Part shown: positions 5,652 to 43,232 of the stretch, one piece after another | Layout of the letters: the number at the start of each line of letters is the position of its first letter | How positions within the stretch are numbered: the first letter of the stretch is position 1 | Assembly: GCF_018613415.1 (NCBI RefSeq) | Contig: NZ_JAGGQG010000002.1 | Span: 372,001 to 436,000, forward strand | Reading direction: 5' to 3' | DNA length: 64,000 nucleotides | DNA from: Bacillus sp. ISL-18 | Lineage (GTDB): Bacteria > Bacillota > Bacilli > Bacillales > Cytobacillaceae | Position numbers and translations under genes: made by a program | Notes under the pieces: generated by a model | Seen by the model: the letters and a program-made list of their open reading frames with translations, nothing else | Told to the model about the DNA's origin: nothing | Database searches by the model: none

Positions 5652-5702
5652 GAAGACTCAAATAAGGAGGATAATAGACTCCTATTTGGGTCTTCTTTTT
5701 TA
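5652..5702 (+). terminator. Rho-independent terminator of rhaBA
   Basis: A long stem (GAAGACTCAAATAAGGAG against CTCCTATTTGGGTCTTC, with one bulge) followed by six T. Confidence 0.9.
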
Positions 5703-5708
5703 GGAAAA

Positions 5709-5830
5709 AGAAGGAATTCTACAAAAAATTGAAGAATTCAACGAAATAAAGGAAGAATTCTACGAAGTTTTAAGTTATTCTACAAATTAAAGATGGAATT
5801 CTACAAACTAGCGAAAGAATTCTACATTAA
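5709..5830. repeat. Six-copy array of a 20-21 bp repeat (GAATTCTAC core)
   Basis: GAATTCTAC or a close variant starts at 5714, 5734, 5755, 5775, 5796 and 5817, with steps of 20, 21, 20, 21 and 21 bp. Consensus around the core is AAGAATTCTACRAA; the other half of each unit varies. It lies between the rhaBA terminator and the next AraC gene. No coding potential was seen. Function unknown. Confidence 0.8.
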
Positions 5831-5875
5831 TTGTAAATAGGTTTCCAGTTCGTTCAATTTGATAGGAGGGTTCAT

Positions 5876-6883
5876 ATGAATTGTATTGATTTGCATTCTT
5901 TCCTACAAGCTAATAACACCAGGGAGGCACCGGATTGGGAGGTTATAAAAAATACCTATCCACCAGAACAAGTTAATGTAATAAATGGTGAGCCTGTATA
6001 TAATTTTTATATGATCTTTGATTCCACAATCAATCCGATTGAAGAGAACATTTTCATATCTCAGAGTCCCGTTGCTGCGTTAGTCCCAATGCATATTCAT
6101 CAATATATTGAATTAATTTACGTCTACAAAGGGAAATGTACAGTTATTATGGAAGATCATGAAATTAACATTATTGAGGGCGGAACAATCATGATAGATA
6201 AGAACACCCCTCACACAATAAAAGAAATATCCAAATCAGATATTATCATTGAGATGAAACTCAAGCATGACTACTTGTCAACTGGATTTCTTAGTCGATT
6301 TACAAATAAGAGTATTATCTCACAATTTCTAATTGACTCCATAATCGATAGTCGAAGAGCCAATAACTATCTGTATTTTCCTTTTGAACAAAAATCCAAA
6401 GTGGTTAGTATGATGGAGCAAATTATGTGTGAGTATTATGATAAGGACGTTTTCACTTCGGAATTGATTGATGCTTATCTGTTCATATTGTTTACTGAAC
6501 TAATCCGCCACAGTAACCATTCGAATCATGCGCAGAATGACGAAATCACGCAGAAGGATGCCATTGTCCTCGAGTTCCTAAAGTATATTGATGACCATTT
6601 CAAGGATTGCAGTTTAACGGAAATGGCAGATCACTATAAATATCACCCAAACTATATTTCTGCTGTCCTTAAAAAGGCAACCGGAAAATCATTCAAGGAT
6701 CTTCTGCAAATCCAGCGATTGAACAAGGCAGCTCTATATCTAACTAACTCAGACCTCCCAATACCTGATATTGCAGAAGAAGTCGGGTACTCGAGTGTCT
6801 CTTTTTTCTATAAGAAATTTAACGAAGTCTACTTTCAGACACCTAAAGAATATCGAGAAGGAAAGTCGAGAAGTTTAATATAG
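5876..6883 (+). CDS. AraC-family transcriptional activator (copy 1)
   Basis: A 335-aa regulator. Residues about 50-130 form a cupin-type sugar-sensing domain (VPMHIHQYIELIYVYKG). Residues about 235-330 form the double helix-turn-helix, with first-motif text YISAVLKKATGKSFKDLLQ and second-motif text AEEVGYSSVSFFYKKFNE. It is closely similar to the minus-strand protein at 29551-30552, especially in both recognition helices, so the two probably bind the same DNA site. Start is set by TAGGAGGG 7 bp upstream. The next gene, GH1 at 7055, and three further promoters carry a shared 19-bp element, which is the best candidate target. That link is inference. Confidence 0.9.
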   Translation: MNCIDLHSFLQANNTREAPDWEVIKNTYPPEQVNVINGEPVYNFYMIFDSTINPIEENIFISQSPVAALVPMHIHQYIELIYVYKGKCTVIMEDHEINIIEGGTIMIDKNTPHTIKEISKSDIIIEMKLKHDYLSTGFLSRFTNKSIISQFLIDSIIDSRRANNYLYFPFEQKSKVVSMMEQIMCEYYDKDVFTSELIDAYLFILFTELIRHSNHSNHAQNDEITQKDAIVLEFLKYIDDHFKDCSLTEMADHYKYHPNYISAVLKKATGKSFKDLLQIQRLNKAALYLTNSDLPIPDIAEEVGYSSVSFFYKKFNEVYFQTPKEYREGKSRSLI

Positions 6884-6928: not shown

Positions 6929-6944
6929 TTACAAAAATATATAA

Positions 6945-7012
6945 AATCTTTGATTCGAGCAATAAACCTCTTTGTTTTTAATATTAAATCTTTTGAAACC
7001 GCTTGCTACAAT
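6945..7012 (+). promoter_or_regulatory. Activator element, cre and -10 of the GH1 gene
   Basis: AATCTTTGATTCGAGCAAT (6945-6963) lies exactly 62 bp upstream of TACAAT (7007-7012). There is no good -35. A cre-like sequence (6993-7007, 12/15) overlaps the spacer and the -10. The same arrangement is present at 8362, 30667 and 43165. Confidence 0.65.
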
Positions 7013-7054: not shown

Positions 7055-8323
7055 ATGGAATTACATTTTCCAGTCAATTTTCTTTGGGGATCAACAACAG
7101 CCGCTTATCAAGTGGAAGGGAATAATTATAACAGCGATTTCTGGGCAGAAGAGCATGCGGAAGGCTCGCCATATAAAGATAAATCCGGGGATACCATTGA
7201 CCATTACCGGCTTTATCAAGAGGATATTGCCCTGATGGCCAGTCTAGGATTTAATACGTACCGATTTTCGATCGAATGGTCCAGAATCGAAACAGAACCA
7301 GGACAATATTCACGTTCGGCGATTGAGCATTATCGAGATGTTCTTAAAACTTGTCACAAACATGGAATCACGCCAGTAGTAGCGATGCATCACTTTTCTT
7401 CGCCTAAGTGGCTAATGAGAATAGGAGGATGGGCTAGCCCGGAGGTTCCCGATCGTTTTGCTAACTATTGTGAAGTGGTATTCCGTGAATTAGGGCATTT
7501 AATCCCATACGCATTGACAATGAATGAAATCAACCTACCAGTTATGCTGCGTGAGATTTTCTCGGAAATTGGCTTTATACCACCGGTTGGGATTGAAAGA
7601 GATGCTTGGGTGGCTCCAAAGTGGAGAGAGTCTGCCGCTAAATTGTGCGGAACCACCATCGAAAATTATTTTACGTTCCATATGATTTCGGATGAGTCTT
7701 CTATCAAAATATTAAAAGAGACTCATCAGAAGGCACGTAAGGCAATTAAGCGGACATCGCCAAATACGAAAGTCGGTTTATCAATGGCTCTATCAGATAT
7801 TCAGTCTATTCCAGGTGGCGAGGATTTGGCGGAGCAAAAATGGCATAGTTATTTTAGACAATATTTACCGATGCTAGAAGGAGACGACTTCTTTGGACTT
7901 CAAAATTATACAAGAGAGGTATACGGACCTGAAGGACAAGTGAGACCTGCTGAAGGGGCAGATTTAACACAGATGGGGTATGAATTTTATCCTGAAGCTC
8001 TTGCTAACGTGATCCGAAAGGTTTCAAAAGATTTATCTATTCCAATTATGATCACAGAACACGGTATTGCAACAGATGATGACACGCGCAGGGTAGAATT
8101 CATCGGTAAGGCTTTAGAAGGTGTTCAGGCCTGTCTTAACGATGGAATTGACGTCAGAGGATACCTTCACTGGACCACCTTTGATAATTTCGAATGGCAA
8201 TCTGGCTATTCTATGAGATTTGGTCTTATCGAGGTGGACCGTTCTACGCAGGAACGAAAGGTTAAGGAAAGTGCACGATATTTAGGAAGTATTGCACAAT
8301 TGAATTCATTGGTTGCCAAATAA
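7055..8323 (+). CDS. GH1-family beta-glycosidase (copy 1)
   Basis: A 422-aa cytoplasmic TIM-barrel glycosidase of family GH1. The N-terminal FLWGSTTAAYQVEG (glycone-binding Gln), YRFSIEWSRIE, acid/base Glu158 in TMNEIN and nucleophile Glu335 in ITEHG are visible. The nucleophile motif is TEHG rather than the common TENG. The paralogue at 30782 is co-linear and shares this change. The protein is shorter than usual GH1 enzymes (440-480 aa). ATG 7055 has AAGGAG about 9 bp upstream. An in-frame upstream extension to 6950 would run over the promoter and is rejected. Context with rhamnosidases suggests a role on rhamnosylated beta-glycosides. No signal peptide. Exact substrate unknown. Confidence 0.85.
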   Translation: MELHFPVNFLWGSTTAAYQVEGNNYNSDFWAEEHAEGSPYKDKSGDTIDHYRLYQEDIALMASLGFNTYRFSIEWSRIETEPGQYSRSAIEHYRDVLKTCHKHGITPVVAMHHFSSPKWLMRIGGWASPEVPDRFANYCEVVFRELGHLIPYALTMNEINLPVMLREIFSEIGFIPPVGIERDAWVAPKWRESAAKLCGTTIENYFTFHMISDESSIKILKETHQKARKAIKRTSPNTKVGLSMALSDIQSIPGGEDLAEQKWHSYFRQYLPMLEGDDFFGLQNYTREVYGPEGQVRPAEGADLTQMGYEFYPEALANVIRKVSKDLSIPIMITEHGIATDDDTRRVEFIGKALEGVQACLNDGIDVRGYLHWTTFDNFEWQSGYSMRFGLIEVDRSTQERKVKESARYLGSIAQLNSLVAK

Positions 8324-8331
8324 CTTTCATG

Positions 8332-8354
8332 GCCTCCGGGTGCAGCTCGGAGGC
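8332..8354 (+). terminator. Hairpin after the GH1 gene
   Basis: GCCTCCG and CGGAGGC form a perfect 7-bp stem 9 bp after the stop. There is no T-run, so termination may be partial. Confidence 0.5.
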
Positions 8355-8361
8355 TGAGCAA

Positions 8362-8429
8362 AATCTTTGAATCGAGCAAAAAAAAACATTGATTTTACTA
8401 TTATATTCTTTGAAAACGCTTGCTATAAT
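8362..8429 (+). promoter_or_regulatory. Activator element, cre and -10 of the MFS-GH78 operon
   Basis: AATCTTTGAATCGAGCAA (8362-8379) begins exactly 62 bp before TATAAT (8424-8429). A cre-like site TTGAAAACGCTTGCT (8410-8424, 13/15) overlaps the promoter. The region equivalent to the -35 is weak (TTATAT), which fits activator dependence. Confidence 0.7.
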
Positions 8430-8539
8430 CGAAAATTAGATAGGTATATAGGAGTAGTCAATTTAAAAAGGATTAATTGTTTTAACCCAAAGCGTTCAGG
8501 TTATTTATTAAAGCGTTTATATTATAGGGGGTTAATAAT

Positions 8540-17718: not shown

Positions 17719-17783
17719 ACACTATTTGATACATAGATGTATACTAGATAAAATAAGTAATTCCATTAAGATGGGTGACCGAA

Positions 17784-20288
17784 ATGAATTTTACCTACGA
17801 AATCATTGAAATGAATAAAGAACTCCCCTTGCATATTTTTCTAAACAGTGTGGATTATGTTTCAAACCATTGGCATGACAGCATCGAGATCATCTTTGTC
17901 CTTAAAGGAAAAGTGAATGTGTCTGTGAATGATAAACGGTTTGAGTTAAATGAAAAAGATGTAGTTCTCATTAATGCAAACGATATTCATGCGATTCAGC
18001 ACCAAGATGAGAATTTATTACTTACGATTCAGCTGCCAATTCCCGATTTAAAAGAACATATTAAAGATGTCGATTCCTATGTTTTCTCTTGTAAATCTTT
18101 TTTGTATGATGAGCATCATCAAGCAGAGTTTAATGAACTGCGTTCAATGTTAGCTCAGATGATGTGGGTAATTAATAAAGAGAGTGAAGGATATGAATTA
18201 CAAATAAAGTCCCTTTATTTTCAGTTAATTTATTTGCTAATGAAAAACTTTAAAGAAGAAACAGAAAAGGAAAGCAAGCTTTCAAGCCAAAAACATATTG
18301 AGAGGTTATTAAGGATTACCTCCTATGTAAAAGACAATTTTAAACAGCAGATTACTTTGAATGAGTTATCCCAGATTGAATTTTTGTCTGTCCATTATTT
18401 ATCAAAGTTTATCCAAAAACACCTAGGGATGCCTTTTTCAAAATACGTGGATAGTATCCGGCTTGATCATGCAGTGAAAGATATTGTCTTTACTGATATT
18501 CCGCTCACGCAAATTGCCTTGGATAATGGATTTGCAAGTGTTAAGGCTTTTAATAGAGCCTTCAAGGAGTTTTATCAACAGACGCCAAGTGAATATCGCC
18601 GTGCGGTAGAGATGGAACCAAAGAAAACGGAAAGTAATAAGGTAACACTTGCTAACTATGTGGAAATTGATAAAACACAGGCCTTCGATCAGCTATTTGC
18701 TTTTTTACCGTCTAAAGAACAATCATTAGTAGTTGAAAATAAAGCCGTTTTGAAAAAAACAATCAAAATTAATGTGGAAGAAAAGGCGGATAAACTTAAC
18801 CATACATGGAAGAATCTTATGACAGTTGGTAAGGCCAAAGAGTGCCTTTATACCGATATTCAAAACCAAATCAAGCAGGTGAAAAAAGCGACTAATTTTA
18901 AATACCTCCGTTTTCATGGGATCTTTGATGATGAAATGATGGTTTATGGGGAAAATGAGCAAGGGATTCCTGAATATAATTTTCTTTATACAGACAAGTT
19001 AATCGAATTTTTGCGGAGCATACATGTAAAGCCGTTTGTTGAATTAGGATTCATGCCATCAGAATTGGCCGCTAGCCATGAAACGGTATTTTATAAAGAA
19101 AGCAATGTAAGTAAACCAAAGGATATCGAGAAATGGAATAACCTTCTAATGGCGTTTATTCTCCGTTATGAGAATCTCTACGGGCAAGATGAAGTCCTTC
19201 AATGGTATTTCGAAGTGTGGAATGAGCCTGATTTTTATGTATTTTGGCGGGGGACGTTCGAAGAATATTGCCTATTATATAAAAATACTTACGAAACCAT
19301 TAAAGGGATAAACCCCCTTTATAAAGTAGGGGGACCAAGTATTGTTTCCATTAATAATAGTGACTGGCTGCAGCAATTTTTAGATTTTTGTAAAAGAGAA
19401 AATTGTATTCCTGATTTTATCTCCTTCCATAATTACTCACATGACGAAATGGATATAAATAAGAAAAAAAATTTAACGAATGATCAAGCCATGGAATCCG
19501 GTTATATTTCAAGGGATGAACACTTCCTGAAAAACCGAATAGCTGTTCTGAAGAGGAAATTAGCAGAGAATCATTTAAACGACATTGAGGTTCACCTTAC
19601 GGAATGGAACTCTACGGCCTATCACCGAGATTTAACAAATGATACTAGCTTCAAAGCCGCTTTTATAGTGAAAAATCTCGTGGAAAATATTGATGCCATT
19701 CAAAGCTTTGGCTATTGGACGCTAACCGATTTAATTGAAGAAAGAAGAGCTTCCACGAACAGTTTCCATGGTGGATTAGGTTTGATTACAAATAATAATA
19801 TTCCAAAACCTGCTTTTTTTGCCTATCAGCTGCTTGGCAAATTAGGGAATCAACTGGTTTCTCAAGGCGATGGTTACATTTTAACGAAAAATTCTAAGGG
19901 GTATCAGCTGCTTCTATATCATTATTGTCATTATGACCGGCTGTATTGTATGAACCAGCATGCAAACATTGATTTAGAAAATCGATACAATGTATTTCTT
20001 AATCAGAATCCGATTGAAATGAAATTCATTATGAATGAATTGAAAAAAGGGACATACAAAGTAAGGCAGTACCAATTAAACAGACAACATGGAAGTTCTT
20101 TTGATCAATGGGTCGAAATGGGTGCCCCTGAACTTATGAATCAAGAGGATATCGATTATTTAATTCATTCTAGTATCCCTAAACTTCAAATAAGTGAAGT
20201 GCGTATTGAGGAAGATTACATTTTAAGCACCATTCTCGGGGCTCATGAAGTACAATTATTTGAGATTGTTCCCCAAAGAACTCTTTAG
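17784..20288 (+). CDS. AraC regulator fused to a GH39 glycosidase domain
   Basis: An 834-aa two-part protein. Residues about 1-110 are a cupin sensor (VSNHWHDSIEIIFVLKG). Residues about 172-275 are an AraC double helix-turn-helix (VHYLSKFIQKHLGMPFSKY; LDNGFASVKAFNRAFKEFY). Residues about 300-830 are a GH39 beta-xylosidase-type TIM barrel with accessory beta domain. Both catalytic glutamates are present: acid/base Glu481 in EVWNEPDF and nucleophile Glu607 in LTEWNST. GTG 17775 is in frame, but GGGTGA supports ATG 17784. Such fusions are known in Bacillus and Paenibacillus. The GH39 part could sense or process the inducer. It has its own terminator and stands next to the DeoR gene and the second MFS gene. 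Confidence 0.9.
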   Translation: MNFTYEIIEMNKELPLHIFLNSVDYVSNHWHDSIEIIFVLKGKVNVSVNDKRFELNEKDVVLINANDIHAIQHQDENLLLTIQLPIPDLKEHIKDVDSYVFSCKSFLYDEHHQAEFNELRSMLAQMMWVINKESEGYELQIKSLYFQLIYLLMKNFKEETEKESKLSSQKHIERLLRITSYVKDNFKQQITLNELSQIEFLSVHYLSKFIQKHLGMPFSKYVDSIRLDHAVKDIVFTDIPLTQIALDNGFASVKAFNRAFKEFYQQTPSEYRRAVEMEPKKTESNKVTLANYVEIDKTQAFDQLFAFLPSKEQSLVVENKAVLKKTIKINVEEKADKLNHTWKNLMTVGKAKECLYTDIQNQIKQVKKATNFKYLRFHGIFDDEMMVYGENEQGIPEYNFLYTDKLIEFLRSIHVKPFVELGFMPSELAASHETVFYKESNVSKPKDIEKWNNLLMAFILRYENLYGQDEVLQWYFEVWNEPDFYVFWRGTFEEYCLLYKNTYETIKGINPLYKVGGPSIVSINNSDWLQQFLDFCKRENCIPDFISFHNYSHDEMDINKKKNLTNDQAMESGYISRDEHFLKNRIAVLKRKLAENHLNDIEVHLTEWNSTAYHRDLTNDTSFKAAFIVKNLVENIDAIQSFGYWTLTDLIEERRASTNSFHGGLGLITNNNIPKPAFFAYQLLGKLGNQLVSQGDGYILTKNSKGYQLLLYHYCHYDRLYCMNQHANIDLENRYNVFLNQNPIEMKFIMNELKKGTYKVRQYQLNRQHGSSFDQWVEMGAPELMNQEDIDYLIHSSIPKLQISEVRIEEDYILSTILGAHEVQLFEIVPQRTL

Positions 20289-29529: not shown

Positions 29530-29570
29530 AAAAGAAATAGCAAGGGAGCCTTAATTTTCAATCCCTTGCT
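29530..29570 (-). terminator. Terminator shared by the AraC copy 2 gene and MATE
   Basis: AGCAAGGGA (29539-29547) and TCCCTTGCT (29562-29570) form a perfect 9-bp stem. It overlaps the last codons of the minus-strand AraC gene and is followed on that strand by a T-rich tract. Confidence 0.65.
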
Positions 29571-30552
29571 GTTTATGCTGTTCCTTATAACAATGCGGGG
29601 TCTCCTTAAACAGTTCTTTAAACTTTTTATAAAAAAAAGTAACACTGGAATATCCTACTTCTTGAGCGATTTCAGGTATAGGTAAATCAGTATTAGACAA
29701 ATACAAGGCGGCCTGGTTCAGCCGTTGAATCTGGAGAAGTTCTTTAAATGATTTCCCAGTCCCTTTTTTTAGCAAAGTGGAAAGGTAACTCGGATTAAAG
29801 CCAAAGGTCTGTCCCATTTTATCCAGCGAACAATCGCGGTAATTGTCCTCAATATACTTCAAAAAACCTAGTAAAGAGACCATGTCTTTATTATCCTCAG
29901 ATTTATATCTTGGCTGAATGTTGTTAGTTCGAATTACTGTGGAAAATAAAACGACTAAATAAGAATCGATAATTTCTGCAGAACAAAAGTCACGGTCAAA
30001 AAATTCACACATGATATTCTCCATAATTTCCGTAACCTTACTGCCCTCAGGTCTAAAAATCAAGAATTGATTTTGCTTCCGATGGCTTACAAGCGATTCA
30101 ATCATAAATTGAGAGATAATGCTTTTCTGTGACATTCGTCTTAGAAAGCTTGGTGAAAGATAGTCCTGCTTCAGAATGGTATTGATTACAATATCATCTT
30201 TGGTGGTTGCAGCTACGCTATGAGGCACTTCTTTGTTAATGAAAATTAGCTCCCCTTTATGCAAATGAACCTTTTTTCCTCTAATTAAAACGGTGACTGT
30301 TCCCCGATAAACAAACATCATCTCTATATAATCATGCATGTGAAGAGGAATATCCGAGCCGTATGGCTGCTGAGAGATGGATATGTTCTCATCAATAGGT
30401 ATATCGTTTATATCAAATGTTTTATTAAATAGATATACAAGTTCTCCATTTATTATTTCAGTAAAAGGATGATACTCCTTTAAAACTCTTTCTTTATCAA
30501 TTGGCCCTAAATGATAGCTGTCTAAGTAGCCTTCAAGTTGTTGTCGGTCCAT
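29551..30552 (-). CDS. AraC-family transcriptional activator (copy 2)
   Basis: A 333-aa paralogue of the regulator at 5876-6883. Cupin sensor (SDIPLHMHDYIEMMFVYRG, about 70-90) and C-terminal double helix-turn-helix. The recognition regions YLSTLLKKGTGKSFKELLQ and AQEVGYSSVTFFYKKFKE are nearly the same as those of copy 1, so target sites are likely shared. It is divergent from the GH1 copy 2 gene, whose promoter carries the 19-bp element. An AGGGAG-type sequence lies before the ATG on the minus strand. Differences in the sensor half suggest different inducers. Confidence 0.9.
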   Translation of the reverse strand: MDRQQLEGYLDSYHLGPIDKERVLKEYHPFTEIINGELVYLFNKTFDINDIPIDENISISQQPYGSDIPLHMHDYIEMMFVYRGTVTVLIRGKKVHLHKGELIFINKEVPHSVAATTKDDIVINTILKQDYLSPSFLRRMSQKSIISQFMIESLVSHRKQNQFLIFRPEGSKVTEIMENIMCEFFDRDFCSAEIIDSYLVVLFSTVIRTNNIQPRYKSEDNKDMVSLLGFLKYIEDNYRDCSLDKMGQTFGFNPSYLSTLLKKGTGKSFKELLQIQRLNQAALYLSNTDLPIPEIAQEVGYSSVTFFYKKFKELFKETPHCYKEQHKQQGIEN

Positions 30553-30666
30553 ATGTGCTCCCTATGATTAATGATTGGAGTAATCAATTGCTAAATTTTA
30601 TTATAAGTTGTTTCCTTCCATAAGTAAAAACAGTTGATAAAACGAGGTTTTAATTTAAAAAGTAAA

Positions 30667-30734
30667 TAACTATGATTCGAGCAATCACTAACTCGTTTTT
30701 TAACATTATATCTTAAGTAATTGATTGTTACTAT
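30667..30734 (+). promoter_or_regulatory. Activator element and -10 of the second GH1 gene
   Basis: AACTATGATTCGAGCAAT (core TGATTCGAGCAAT at 30673-30685) lies at the same 62-bp distance from the -10 TACTAT (30729-30734) as at the three other promoters. The cre present at the other three is degenerate here (the central CG is lost). Confidence 0.6.
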
Positions 30735-30781: not shown

Positions 30782-32047
30782 ATGAACTATGTTTTTCCTA
30801 AATCTTTCCTATGGGGTACGGCTACATCTGCTTACCAGGTAGAAGGGAACAATGATAAATCGGATATGTGGGCTGAAGAATATTCAGAAGGATCACCTTA
30901 CAGAGATTATTCAGGTGATGCTGTCGATCACTATAATCGGTACAAACAGGATATCGAACTCATGGCAAGTTTAGGTCTGAACAGTTACCGTTTTTCAATT
31001 GAATGGTCAAGAATTGAACCGGAGCAGGGGATATATTCTCAGGAAGAATTAGACCATTATCGAGATGTAATCAAAACATGTTACGACAACAACATTACTC
31101 CAGTCGTTACGATGATGCATTTTACTTCTCCACAGTGGCTGATGAAACTAGGCGGATGGAAAAATCCAGAGACAGCAGACCTATTCGCGAAATATTGTGA
31201 GGTTGTATTCAAGGAGTTTGGTGAGGATATTCCTTACGTCTTAACGATGAATGAAGTCAATTTGCCTGTCATGTTAAAAGAATTGTTTATTAATATGAAC
31301 TTTATGCCGCCTGTTGGGATGGATGCCAAGTCATGGACAGCTCCAGGCTGGCGTGAATCTGCTGCTGCGAAATGCGGAACAACCATTGATCAATATTTTA
31401 CCTTCCACATGGCATCTGATGAGGCTTCTTTAGATATTGTAAAGGATGCCCATAGGAAAGCTAGAGAAGTGATGAAAAAAGTGAATCCATCCACTAAGGT
31501 AGGACTTTCCTTGGCATTGCCTGAGATTCAAGTAATTCCTGGTGGAGAGGAGCAGGCTGCAAAAGTTTGGCATGATTACTTTGGGCAATTTAAATCTGTC
31601 ATTGAAGGTGACGACTTTATTGGTATACAGAACTACACTCGTGAAGTGTATGGTCCAGAGGGACAAGTTCCGCTGCCTGAGGGAACAGAAGTAACCGCAA
31701 TGGGATATGAATTTTATCCGGAAGCACTTGCTGGAACCATCAGAAATGTAGCTGCAGAGTTAGATATCCCTGTTTTGGTAACAGAGCACGGTATTGCAAC
31801 AGATAATGATAGCCGCCGGATTGAGTTTATCCGGCGAGGACTTAGAGGGCTGCATGCGTGTATCGAGGACGGAATACAAGTGTTAGGTTATCTTTATTGG
31901 TCCACATTTGATAACTATGAATGGACATTTGGCTATGAACCGCATTTTGGGATTATTGGGGTCAATCCTGAAACACAAGAGAGAGTAGTAAAAGAAAGCG
32001 GCCGTGTTCTAGGAGATATTTCTAAAAATAATGGTGTAAATGAATAG
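30782..32047 (+). CDS. GH1-family beta-glycosidase (copy 2)
   Basis: A 421-aa cytoplasmic GH1 enzyme, co-linear with copy 1 at 7055 with almost no gaps. FLWGTATSAYQVEG, YRFSIEWSRIE, acid/base Glu158 (TMNEVN) and nucleophile Glu335 (VTEHG) match position for position. CAGGAGGT precedes ATG 30782. Divergent from AraC copy 2. A 52-bp hairpin array rather than a normal terminator follows the stop. Like copy 1 it probably removes a beta-linked sugar from imported glycosides; the exact substrate is unknown. Confidence 0.85.
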   Translation: MNYVFPKSFLWGTATSAYQVEGNNDKSDMWAEEYSEGSPYRDYSGDAVDHYNRYKQDIELMASLGLNSYRFSIEWSRIEPEQGIYSQEELDHYRDVIKTCYDNNITPVVTMMHFTSPQWLMKLGGWKNPETADLFAKYCEVVFKEFGEDIPYVLTMNEVNLPVMLKELFINMNFMPPVGMDAKSWTAPGWRESAAAKCGTTIDQYFTFHMASDEASLDIVKDAHRKAREVMKKVNPSTKVGLSLALPEIQVIPGGEEQAAKVWHDYFGQFKSVIEGDDFIGIQNYTREVYGPEGQVPLPEGTEVTAMGYEFYPEALAGTIRNVAAELDIPVLVTEHGIATDNDSRRIEFIRRGLRGLHACIEDGIQVLGYLYWSTFDNYEWTFGYEPHFGIIGVNPETQERVVKESGRVLGDISKNNGVNE

Positions 32048-43164: not shown

Positions 43165-43232
43165 AATCTTTGATTCGAGCAATGTTTATATTTCATATGA
43201 ATATTAAAATAAATTAAAGCGTTTGCTAAAAT
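43165..43232 (+). promoter_or_regulatory. Activator element, cre-like site and -10 of the second GH78 gene
   Basis: AATCTTTGATTCGAGCAAT (43165-43183) is identical to the element at 6945 and lies exactly 62 bp before TAAAAT (43227-43232). A cre-like sequence (43213-43227, 12/15) overlaps the promoter. Confidence 0.7.

Follow-up and report, generated by a model that had tools for sequence, protein, structure and literature searches.

A plant-glycoside cluster of Bacillus sp. ISL-18 raises the question of why four of its promoters share a near-identical 19-bp element at a constant distance from the -10 hexamer, and which protein would read that element. We analyzed the cluster in the window, by which we mean the whole stretch of 64,000 nucleotides on contig NZ_JAGGQG010000002.1 (positions 372,001 to 436,000, forward strand). 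The answer that we favor, with a probability of roughly 0.85, is that the element belongs, as the distal half, to an operator read by two paralogous AraC-family proteins, A and B, which would activate transcription in a class II-type manner, with CcpA as an additional repressor.

The four promoters, called P1 to P4 in order of position, carry TGAWTCGAGCAA, and in 4/4 the -10 hexamer begins 56 bp past the T of TGA. On the + strand, TGATTCGAGCAA occurs at three of them (6951, 30673, and 43171) and TGAATCGAGCAA at the remaining one (8368), and the -10 hexamers start at 7007, 8424, 30729, and 43227. A preliminary description of this DNA had placed 19-bp elements at four promoters with a constant distance to the -10 hexamer, and both claims agree with what we found. 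Its start at 30667 leaves the core spacing unaffected, but the quoted string begins at 30668 because the copy there reads AACTATG and not AATCTTTG. The -35 regions read TTAAAT, TTATAT, TTATAT, and TTAAAA, as poor at all four promoters as had been said. The -10s are of the extended type (TGnTAnnnT); a sigma-70 pattern scan at P1, P2, and P4 listed P4 and missed P1 and P2.

Alignment of the four promoters with 23 from relatives gave the order of parts per promoter: a distal half, CTWTGAWTCGAGCAA, then a proximal half, then an extended -10 that is overlapped by a cre-like box. The proximal half has the consensus CTTTGTTTTTAACATTAA, starts 22 bp after the distal half, and overlaps the -35 position. 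The preliminary description lacks the proximal half, the extended -10, and the cre-like box, and its 19-bp AraC site survives as a common site linked to AraC, but as the distal half only of an operator of ~45 bp. The parts in the window are as follows.

6944..6989, + strand: P1 operator, upstream of GH1 copy 1 (56.0 bits; E 2.4e-14 when the whole genome is scanned)
~6948-6965 and ~6970-6987, + strand: distal half and proximal half (over the -35 position) of the P1 operator
6993..7007, + strand: P1 cre-like box, 15/15 to the consensus WTGNAANCGNWWNCW
7007..7012, + strand: P1 extended -10, TACAAT, with TG three bases upstream
8361..8406, + strand: P2 operator, upstream of the MFS-GH78 genes (39.9 bits, E 2.6e-9)
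8410..8424, + strand: P2 cre-like box, 15/15
8424..8429, + strand: P2 extended -10, TATAAT
30666..30711, + strand: P3 operator, upstream of GH1 copy 2, intergenic and divergent from araC B (42.2 bits, E 5.0e-10)
30729..30734, + strand: P3 extended -10, TACTAT
43165..43209, + strand: P4 operator, upstream of GH78 copy 2 (37.9 bits, E 1.1e-8)
43213..43227, + strand: P4 cre-like box, 14/15
43227..43232, + strand: P4 extended -10, TAAAAT

AraC-family dimers usually bind direct repeats whose period is close to two helical turns. When the half-sites were compared at lags of 15 to 28, lag 22 was the best, with 12/18 matches against 8 for the next best, a repeat that is only moderately significant (P 0.007-0.011 by shuffling), and the self-match of the consensus also peaks at lag 22, with 17/26 positions. 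The arrangement of a class II promoter, a direct repeat with its proximal half over the -35 position, is present in the form of a moderate repeat. A position weight matrix scan around the promoters found no strong second operator on the + strand, and a tRNA scan found none. The P1 element was also considered as coding sequence; a TTG-start frame at 6950 covers it, but a good ribosome site serves the ATG at 7055, and the candidate was rejected.

We then asked how specific the element is. The 12-mer with up to 2 mismatches was found 8 times in the window, where 6.8 were expected from shuffles, and at 619 places in the genome, compared with 327 for a reversed control pattern; the degenerate 12-mer is near chance level in the window and therefore proves little by itself. 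The exact 12-mer occurs 8 times in the whole 6.24-Mb genome, and of the four occurrences beyond the window three lie within open frames, among those checked, and the fourth is locus L001. In this genome, the 15-mer CTWTGAWTCGAGCAA is confined to the four promoters. A copy with one mismatch just left of the window was rejected as a candidate; it lies within another araC-like gene. An operator model of 48 positions, sequence-only, trained on 23 promoters of other genomes with the cre and -10 regions excluded, recovered exactly the four sites in the 6.24-Mb genome, with the next match at E 0.062. The genome-wide search that the preliminary description had suggested, with many unrelated occurrences as the outcome that would count against it, thus returned no further operator-level site.

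The genes that follow the operators are those named in the preliminary description (GH1 copy 1, MFS-GH78, GH1 copy 2, and GH78 copy 2), as Pfam shows.

7055..8323, + strand: GH1 copy 1, target of P1
8540..9832, + strand: MFS sugar transporter, first gene after P2
9953..12865, + strand: GH78 α-L-rhamnosidase copy 1, downstream of the MFS gene
30782..32047, + strand: GH1 copy 2, target of P3
43274..46117, + strand: GH78 α-L-rhamnosidase copy 2, target of P4

Pfam identifies the GH78 proteins as α-L-rhamnosidases, and in sequence comparison the GH1 proteins have a glycoside hydrolase (4r27) and β-glucosidases as their closest relatives of solved structure. The cluster does hold two α-L-rhamnosidase genes, as expected of the rhamnoside regulon that had been proposed, but the model scan of the genome found no operator at rhaB and rhaA, which adjoin araC A, so that the term rhamnose regulon, taken strictly, does not apply. 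We infer the wider term, rhamnoside regulon, from GH78 and the gene context.

The candidate activators are encoded next to P1 and P3.

5876..6883, + strand: araC A, AraC-family protein with a cupin-type N-terminal domain and an AraC helix-turn-helix (HTH), proposed activator
29551..30552, - strand: araC B, AraC-family paralogue, 47% identical to A

Both proteins score above the cutoffs of PF12833 and PF00165 in a C-terminal double HTH of ~100 amino acids, and above those of Cupin_2 and AraC_binding in an N-terminal ligand/dimer domain. The DNA-binding domain matches MarA, AraC, and YesN chains by sequence. Their recognition helices had been called nearly identical, which applies to the second HTH but less to the first, in proteins that share 47% identity overall. 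A falls below the NCBIfam equivalog cutoffs for RhaS (56.8 versus 288 bits), MelR (63.7 versus 253), and AraC (46.3 versus 208). The AraC A of N. drentensis JC05 is 90% identical to it. In a tree of 23 proteins, an A group (n = 14) and a B group (n = 9) separate with full support, the row from Saccharibacillus being long and its placement unsure; judging from this tree, the two groups are old. All A-type genes (14/14) are arranged in tandem with the operator nearest to them, and the B-type genes are divergent from it in 8/9 cases; in the genome G140, araC B is not adjacent. At one locus (L115, genome G108), the match to the araC B orthologue holds a stop, yet the operator is intact.

We investigated the distribution of the operator in 193 genomes of the family, with thresholds of E ≤1.5e-4 for the operator and E <1e-150 for orthologues of A and B. 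Operators were found at 35 sites in 14 genomes, and none in the other 179. Orthologues were found in 13 genomes, with a wide gap to the next AraC protein (E 3.6e-87); all 13 have the operator, and 13 of the 14 operator genomes have an orthologue. The remaining genome, G174, carries its site at a distance of 0.2 kb from a contig end. A contig of equal length, L077 (5,974 bases), begins with the C terminus of an orthologue, 86% identical over residues 272-328; L077 and the G174 contig are probably one, in which case G174 carries an orthologue fragment at the contig end. Seven genomes that have only more distant AraC proteins (G093, G105, G158, G170, G177, G189, and G190) have no operator. The Fisher p of this association is 2.6e-19 (13/13 versus 1/180; uncorrected for kinship, the counts being dependent because the genomes are related), and part of the association could reflect linkage within one inherited cluster, since the operator adjoins an araC gene in most loci. 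A B-type AraC from Saccharibacillus (Paenibacillaceae, L044), 55% identical to B and 45% to A, is encoded divergently from a GH1 gene, and the operator before this GH1 gene (22.3 bits) keeps the same distance to the -10.

Three other regulators are encoded among the target genes, namely, AraC-3 (13112), a DeoR protein (16923), and an AraC-GH39 fusion (17775), and the operator might belong to one of them, the more so as DeoR occurs in 14/14 operator genomes. We consider this very unlikely. AraC-3 (E ≤1e-70) occurs in only 4/193 genomes, all among the 14, and DeoR (E ≤1e-90) occurs in 53/193, which are all 14 plus 39 without the operator; therefore, the operator tracks A and B and not these two neighbors. 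In addition, the locus of Bacillus sp. SA1-12 has araC A and operators and none of the other three regulators (frames of at least 150 amino acids, 13 kb). The operator together with A and B is best read as a regulon local to this cluster. The fusion itself, at 17775-20288 of the window, is one protein in which an N-terminal AraC-type regulator (cupin and HTH) is joined to a GH39 glycosidase domain.

Across genomes, the exact 15-mer occurs at 36 places, 27 of promoter type and 9 inside open frames of 124 to 669 codons. This split was made by hand, on frame length plus the lack of a second half. Frame length alone could not have sorted them, because P1, L017, and L023 also lie in frames of more than 200 codons (476, 227, and 514 codons, respectively, on the operator's own strand); the other 24 of the 27 lie in no frame of more than 104 codons. 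The 27 promoter-type sites precede GH1_1 (14 sites), GH1_2 (8), GH78_2 (3), and MFS1 (2), and none of the 9 coding places has a gene of this set in the following 1.4 kb. Another 17 sites are non-exact: 13 from the 14 genomes, in or beside known clusters, 3 from L041 (Bacillus sp. SA1-12), and 1 from L044. Fifteen of these 17 precede GH1, MFS1, GH78_1, or GH78_2; the L028 site runs into the end of the fetched stretch, and the third L041 site precedes no gene of the set. In L041, the GH1 gene after an operator (7181-8448) is split into two open frames.

The geometry is nearly fixed as well. Of the 27 promoter-type sites, 26 have TAnnnT at +56 and one has it at +57, and TG precedes the -10, read at +56, in 24/27. 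None of the 9 coding places has TAnnnT at the expected distance, a figure that is partly due to construction because the sorting used frame length and the missing second half. Among the non-exact sites, which were found by a model without the -10 region, TGnTAnnnT is at +56 in 11/17 and at +55 in 2/17; the expected -10 is missing in 4/17, all degenerate (L179, L182, L185, and the third site of L041). The alignment places the one-base differences in distance between the two halves, so that the spacing from the proximal half to the -10 seems to be preserved.

Much of this likeness might be inherited, that is, the promoters might be alike merely because they descend by duplication from a single araC-GH1 promoter, with no selection acting on the element today. 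P1 and P3 do precede GH1 paralogues, A and B are themselves paralogues, and the GH78 copies are homologous, with 43.6 to 46.8% cross-identity. However, in the promoters compared, the distal core is unchanged where the sequence between and around the halves has diverged, an outcome that the exact-pattern search favors but that is matched by most of the 17 non-exact sites, which keep both halves too. The element also precedes GH1, MFS, and GH78 genes alike, the A and B groups appear old, the spacing is the same in Saccharibacillus, and genomes without the AraC have no sites. We consider simple inheritance very unlikely and retain the operator of A and B as the explanation.

Control by CcpA through cre is a known mode of regulation of sugar promoters in Bacillus. 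We scored cre-like boxes against the consensus WTGNAANCGNWWNCW. All 19 promoters of the 27 that do not belong to GH1_2 score 14-15/15, and all 8 GH1_2 promoters score ≤13/15; the best score in the nine coding hits is 12, and 14 of the 17 non-exact sites reach 14-15. The ccpA gene is present (TIGR01481, over its cutoff). In the window, P1 (15), P2 (15), and P4 (14) have the features of a CcpA-cre promoter; P3 has no good cre, its best score of 12/15 being at the level of the coding controls. The cre and the extended -10 overlap, so that conservation there can be assigned to neither one alone. From these scores, glucose probably turns off three of the four promoters.

The GH1_2 promoters differ at a further position. 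At base -1 of the distal half, T is found at 19/19 GH1_1, MFS1, and GH78_2 promoters, and A is found at 8/8 GH1_2 promoters (27 exact sites; the search admitted only A or T at this base). It is conceivable, and we propose it tentatively, that the two old paralogues share the operator core but are split at this discriminator base, the channel of A being glucose repressed and that of B weakly or not at all, and possibly autoregulated. A sequence near the start of araC B bears on the last point.

30572..30602, + strand: possible second weak operator half, TGATTGGAGTAAT, with the araC B start codon ~20 bp away (6.5 bits; E 3.6, which by itself lacks significance)

Alignment shows a similar word (9-11/13) in 7/8 GH1_2 loci, next to where araC B starts and 98 to 110 bp upstream of the main site; shuffles reach its score in 1 to 18 of 1,000 cases in six loci and in 137 in the seventh (L021). 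The eighth locus (G140, with araC B not adjacent) has no such word. This weak second site may serve autoregulation of araC B.

Such a site would also suit negative autoregulation or a loop, and the proximal half lies over the -35 position, where a bound protein can block polymerase. A and B could then be mainly repressors, or act by displacing another protein, and not be class II-type activators. We regard this as unlikely in view of the poor -35 regions and the near-constant distance from the proximal half to the -10. Members of the AraC family that govern sugar metabolism are, moreover, mostly activators. Activation by A and B is thus kept in the model below.

We also asked whether a repeat upstream of araC A might be a site for the regulators themselves. 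Six GAATTCTACAAA-like copies with a period of ~20.5 bp lie in the interval that separates rhaA from araC A (window 5707-5830), and the strict two-copy pattern of this repeat occurs once in the genome. The GAATTCTAC repeat has six copies here and in G107, four in G103, and two in G104, and none in the other araC A loci read, and its role as the regulators' site is not supported. Only the closest relatives carry it, so the array may have arisen recently in this lineage. In Robertmurraya korlensis (L042, the same as L116, ~5670-6000), a different tandem-like repeat lies in the same place upstream of araC A, with units that contain TTCTAAATGC, TTTAGTTCAC, and ATTCCACTAA.

The mechanism that we propose from sequence comparison would run as follows. 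With its inducer, AraC A or AraC B would bind as a dimer to the imperfect direct repeat with its 22-bp period. The distal half CTWTGAWTCGAGCAA would be the anchor, centered at about -62 on the assumption of a transcription start 7 bp past the -10, and the weaker proximal half over the -35 position would set the second subunit against RNA polymerase. This contact, together with the extended -10, would compensate for the poor -35. The inducer would be a glycoside or sugar, probably a rhamnoglucoside or its product, as the enzymes suggest (GH78 α-L-rhamnosidases and relatives of GH1 β-glucosidases). When glucose is present, CcpA on the cre over the -10 would block P1, P2, and P4.

This reading provides the plant-glycoside cluster of Neobacillus and relatives with an operator, two regulators, and a list of targets. 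The cluster is a clean case in which to study how AraC activators that arose by duplication use one operator jointly or split it between them, and it offers a predicted inducible, glucose-repressed promoter. Among the literature matches listed, the 12-mer appeared only in work on a plant virus, and nothing concerned this regulon.

In Escherichia coli, AraC acts at araI1-I2 and at class II promoters with a 21-bp period. The promoters described here resemble these in the direct repeat, the proximal half over the -35, the poor -35, and the sugar genes nearby. They differ in the period (22 bp), in the motif, and in the extended -10; furthermore, a cre-like box lies over the -10, where E. coli has a CRP site instead, and the operator is seemingly shared by two paralogues. 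The likeness to CcpA-cre control in Bacillus lies in a consensus-like cre that overlaps the -10 and in the presence of ccpA, whereas here the two are linked by co-occurrence alone and the GH1_2 promoters have no good cre.

The AraC regulators of rhamnose metabolism in Bacillales and RhgR bind direct repeats with a 21-bp periodicity (Rodionova et al. 2013, PMC3870299). Common to those regulators and to A and B are the AraC family, the direct repeats, and the rhamnose or rhamnoside genes in Bacillales; in a comparison of genes, the targets here are GH1, MFS, and GH78 and not rhaB/rhaA or rhamnogalacturonan genes. For Prha and lmo2851 of Listeria monocytogenes, catabolite repression is reported and its exact mechanism is called unclear (PMC3425472). 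The AraC-type gene adjoins rhamnose genes there as it does here, but the rhamnose operon itself is described as the target in Listeria (PMC3425472), whereas rhaB and rhaA carry no operator in our genome. The general ideas of gene regulation are unchanged by these findings: both AraC-family activation from direct repeats that cover the -35 and control through cre are kinds of regulation already known.
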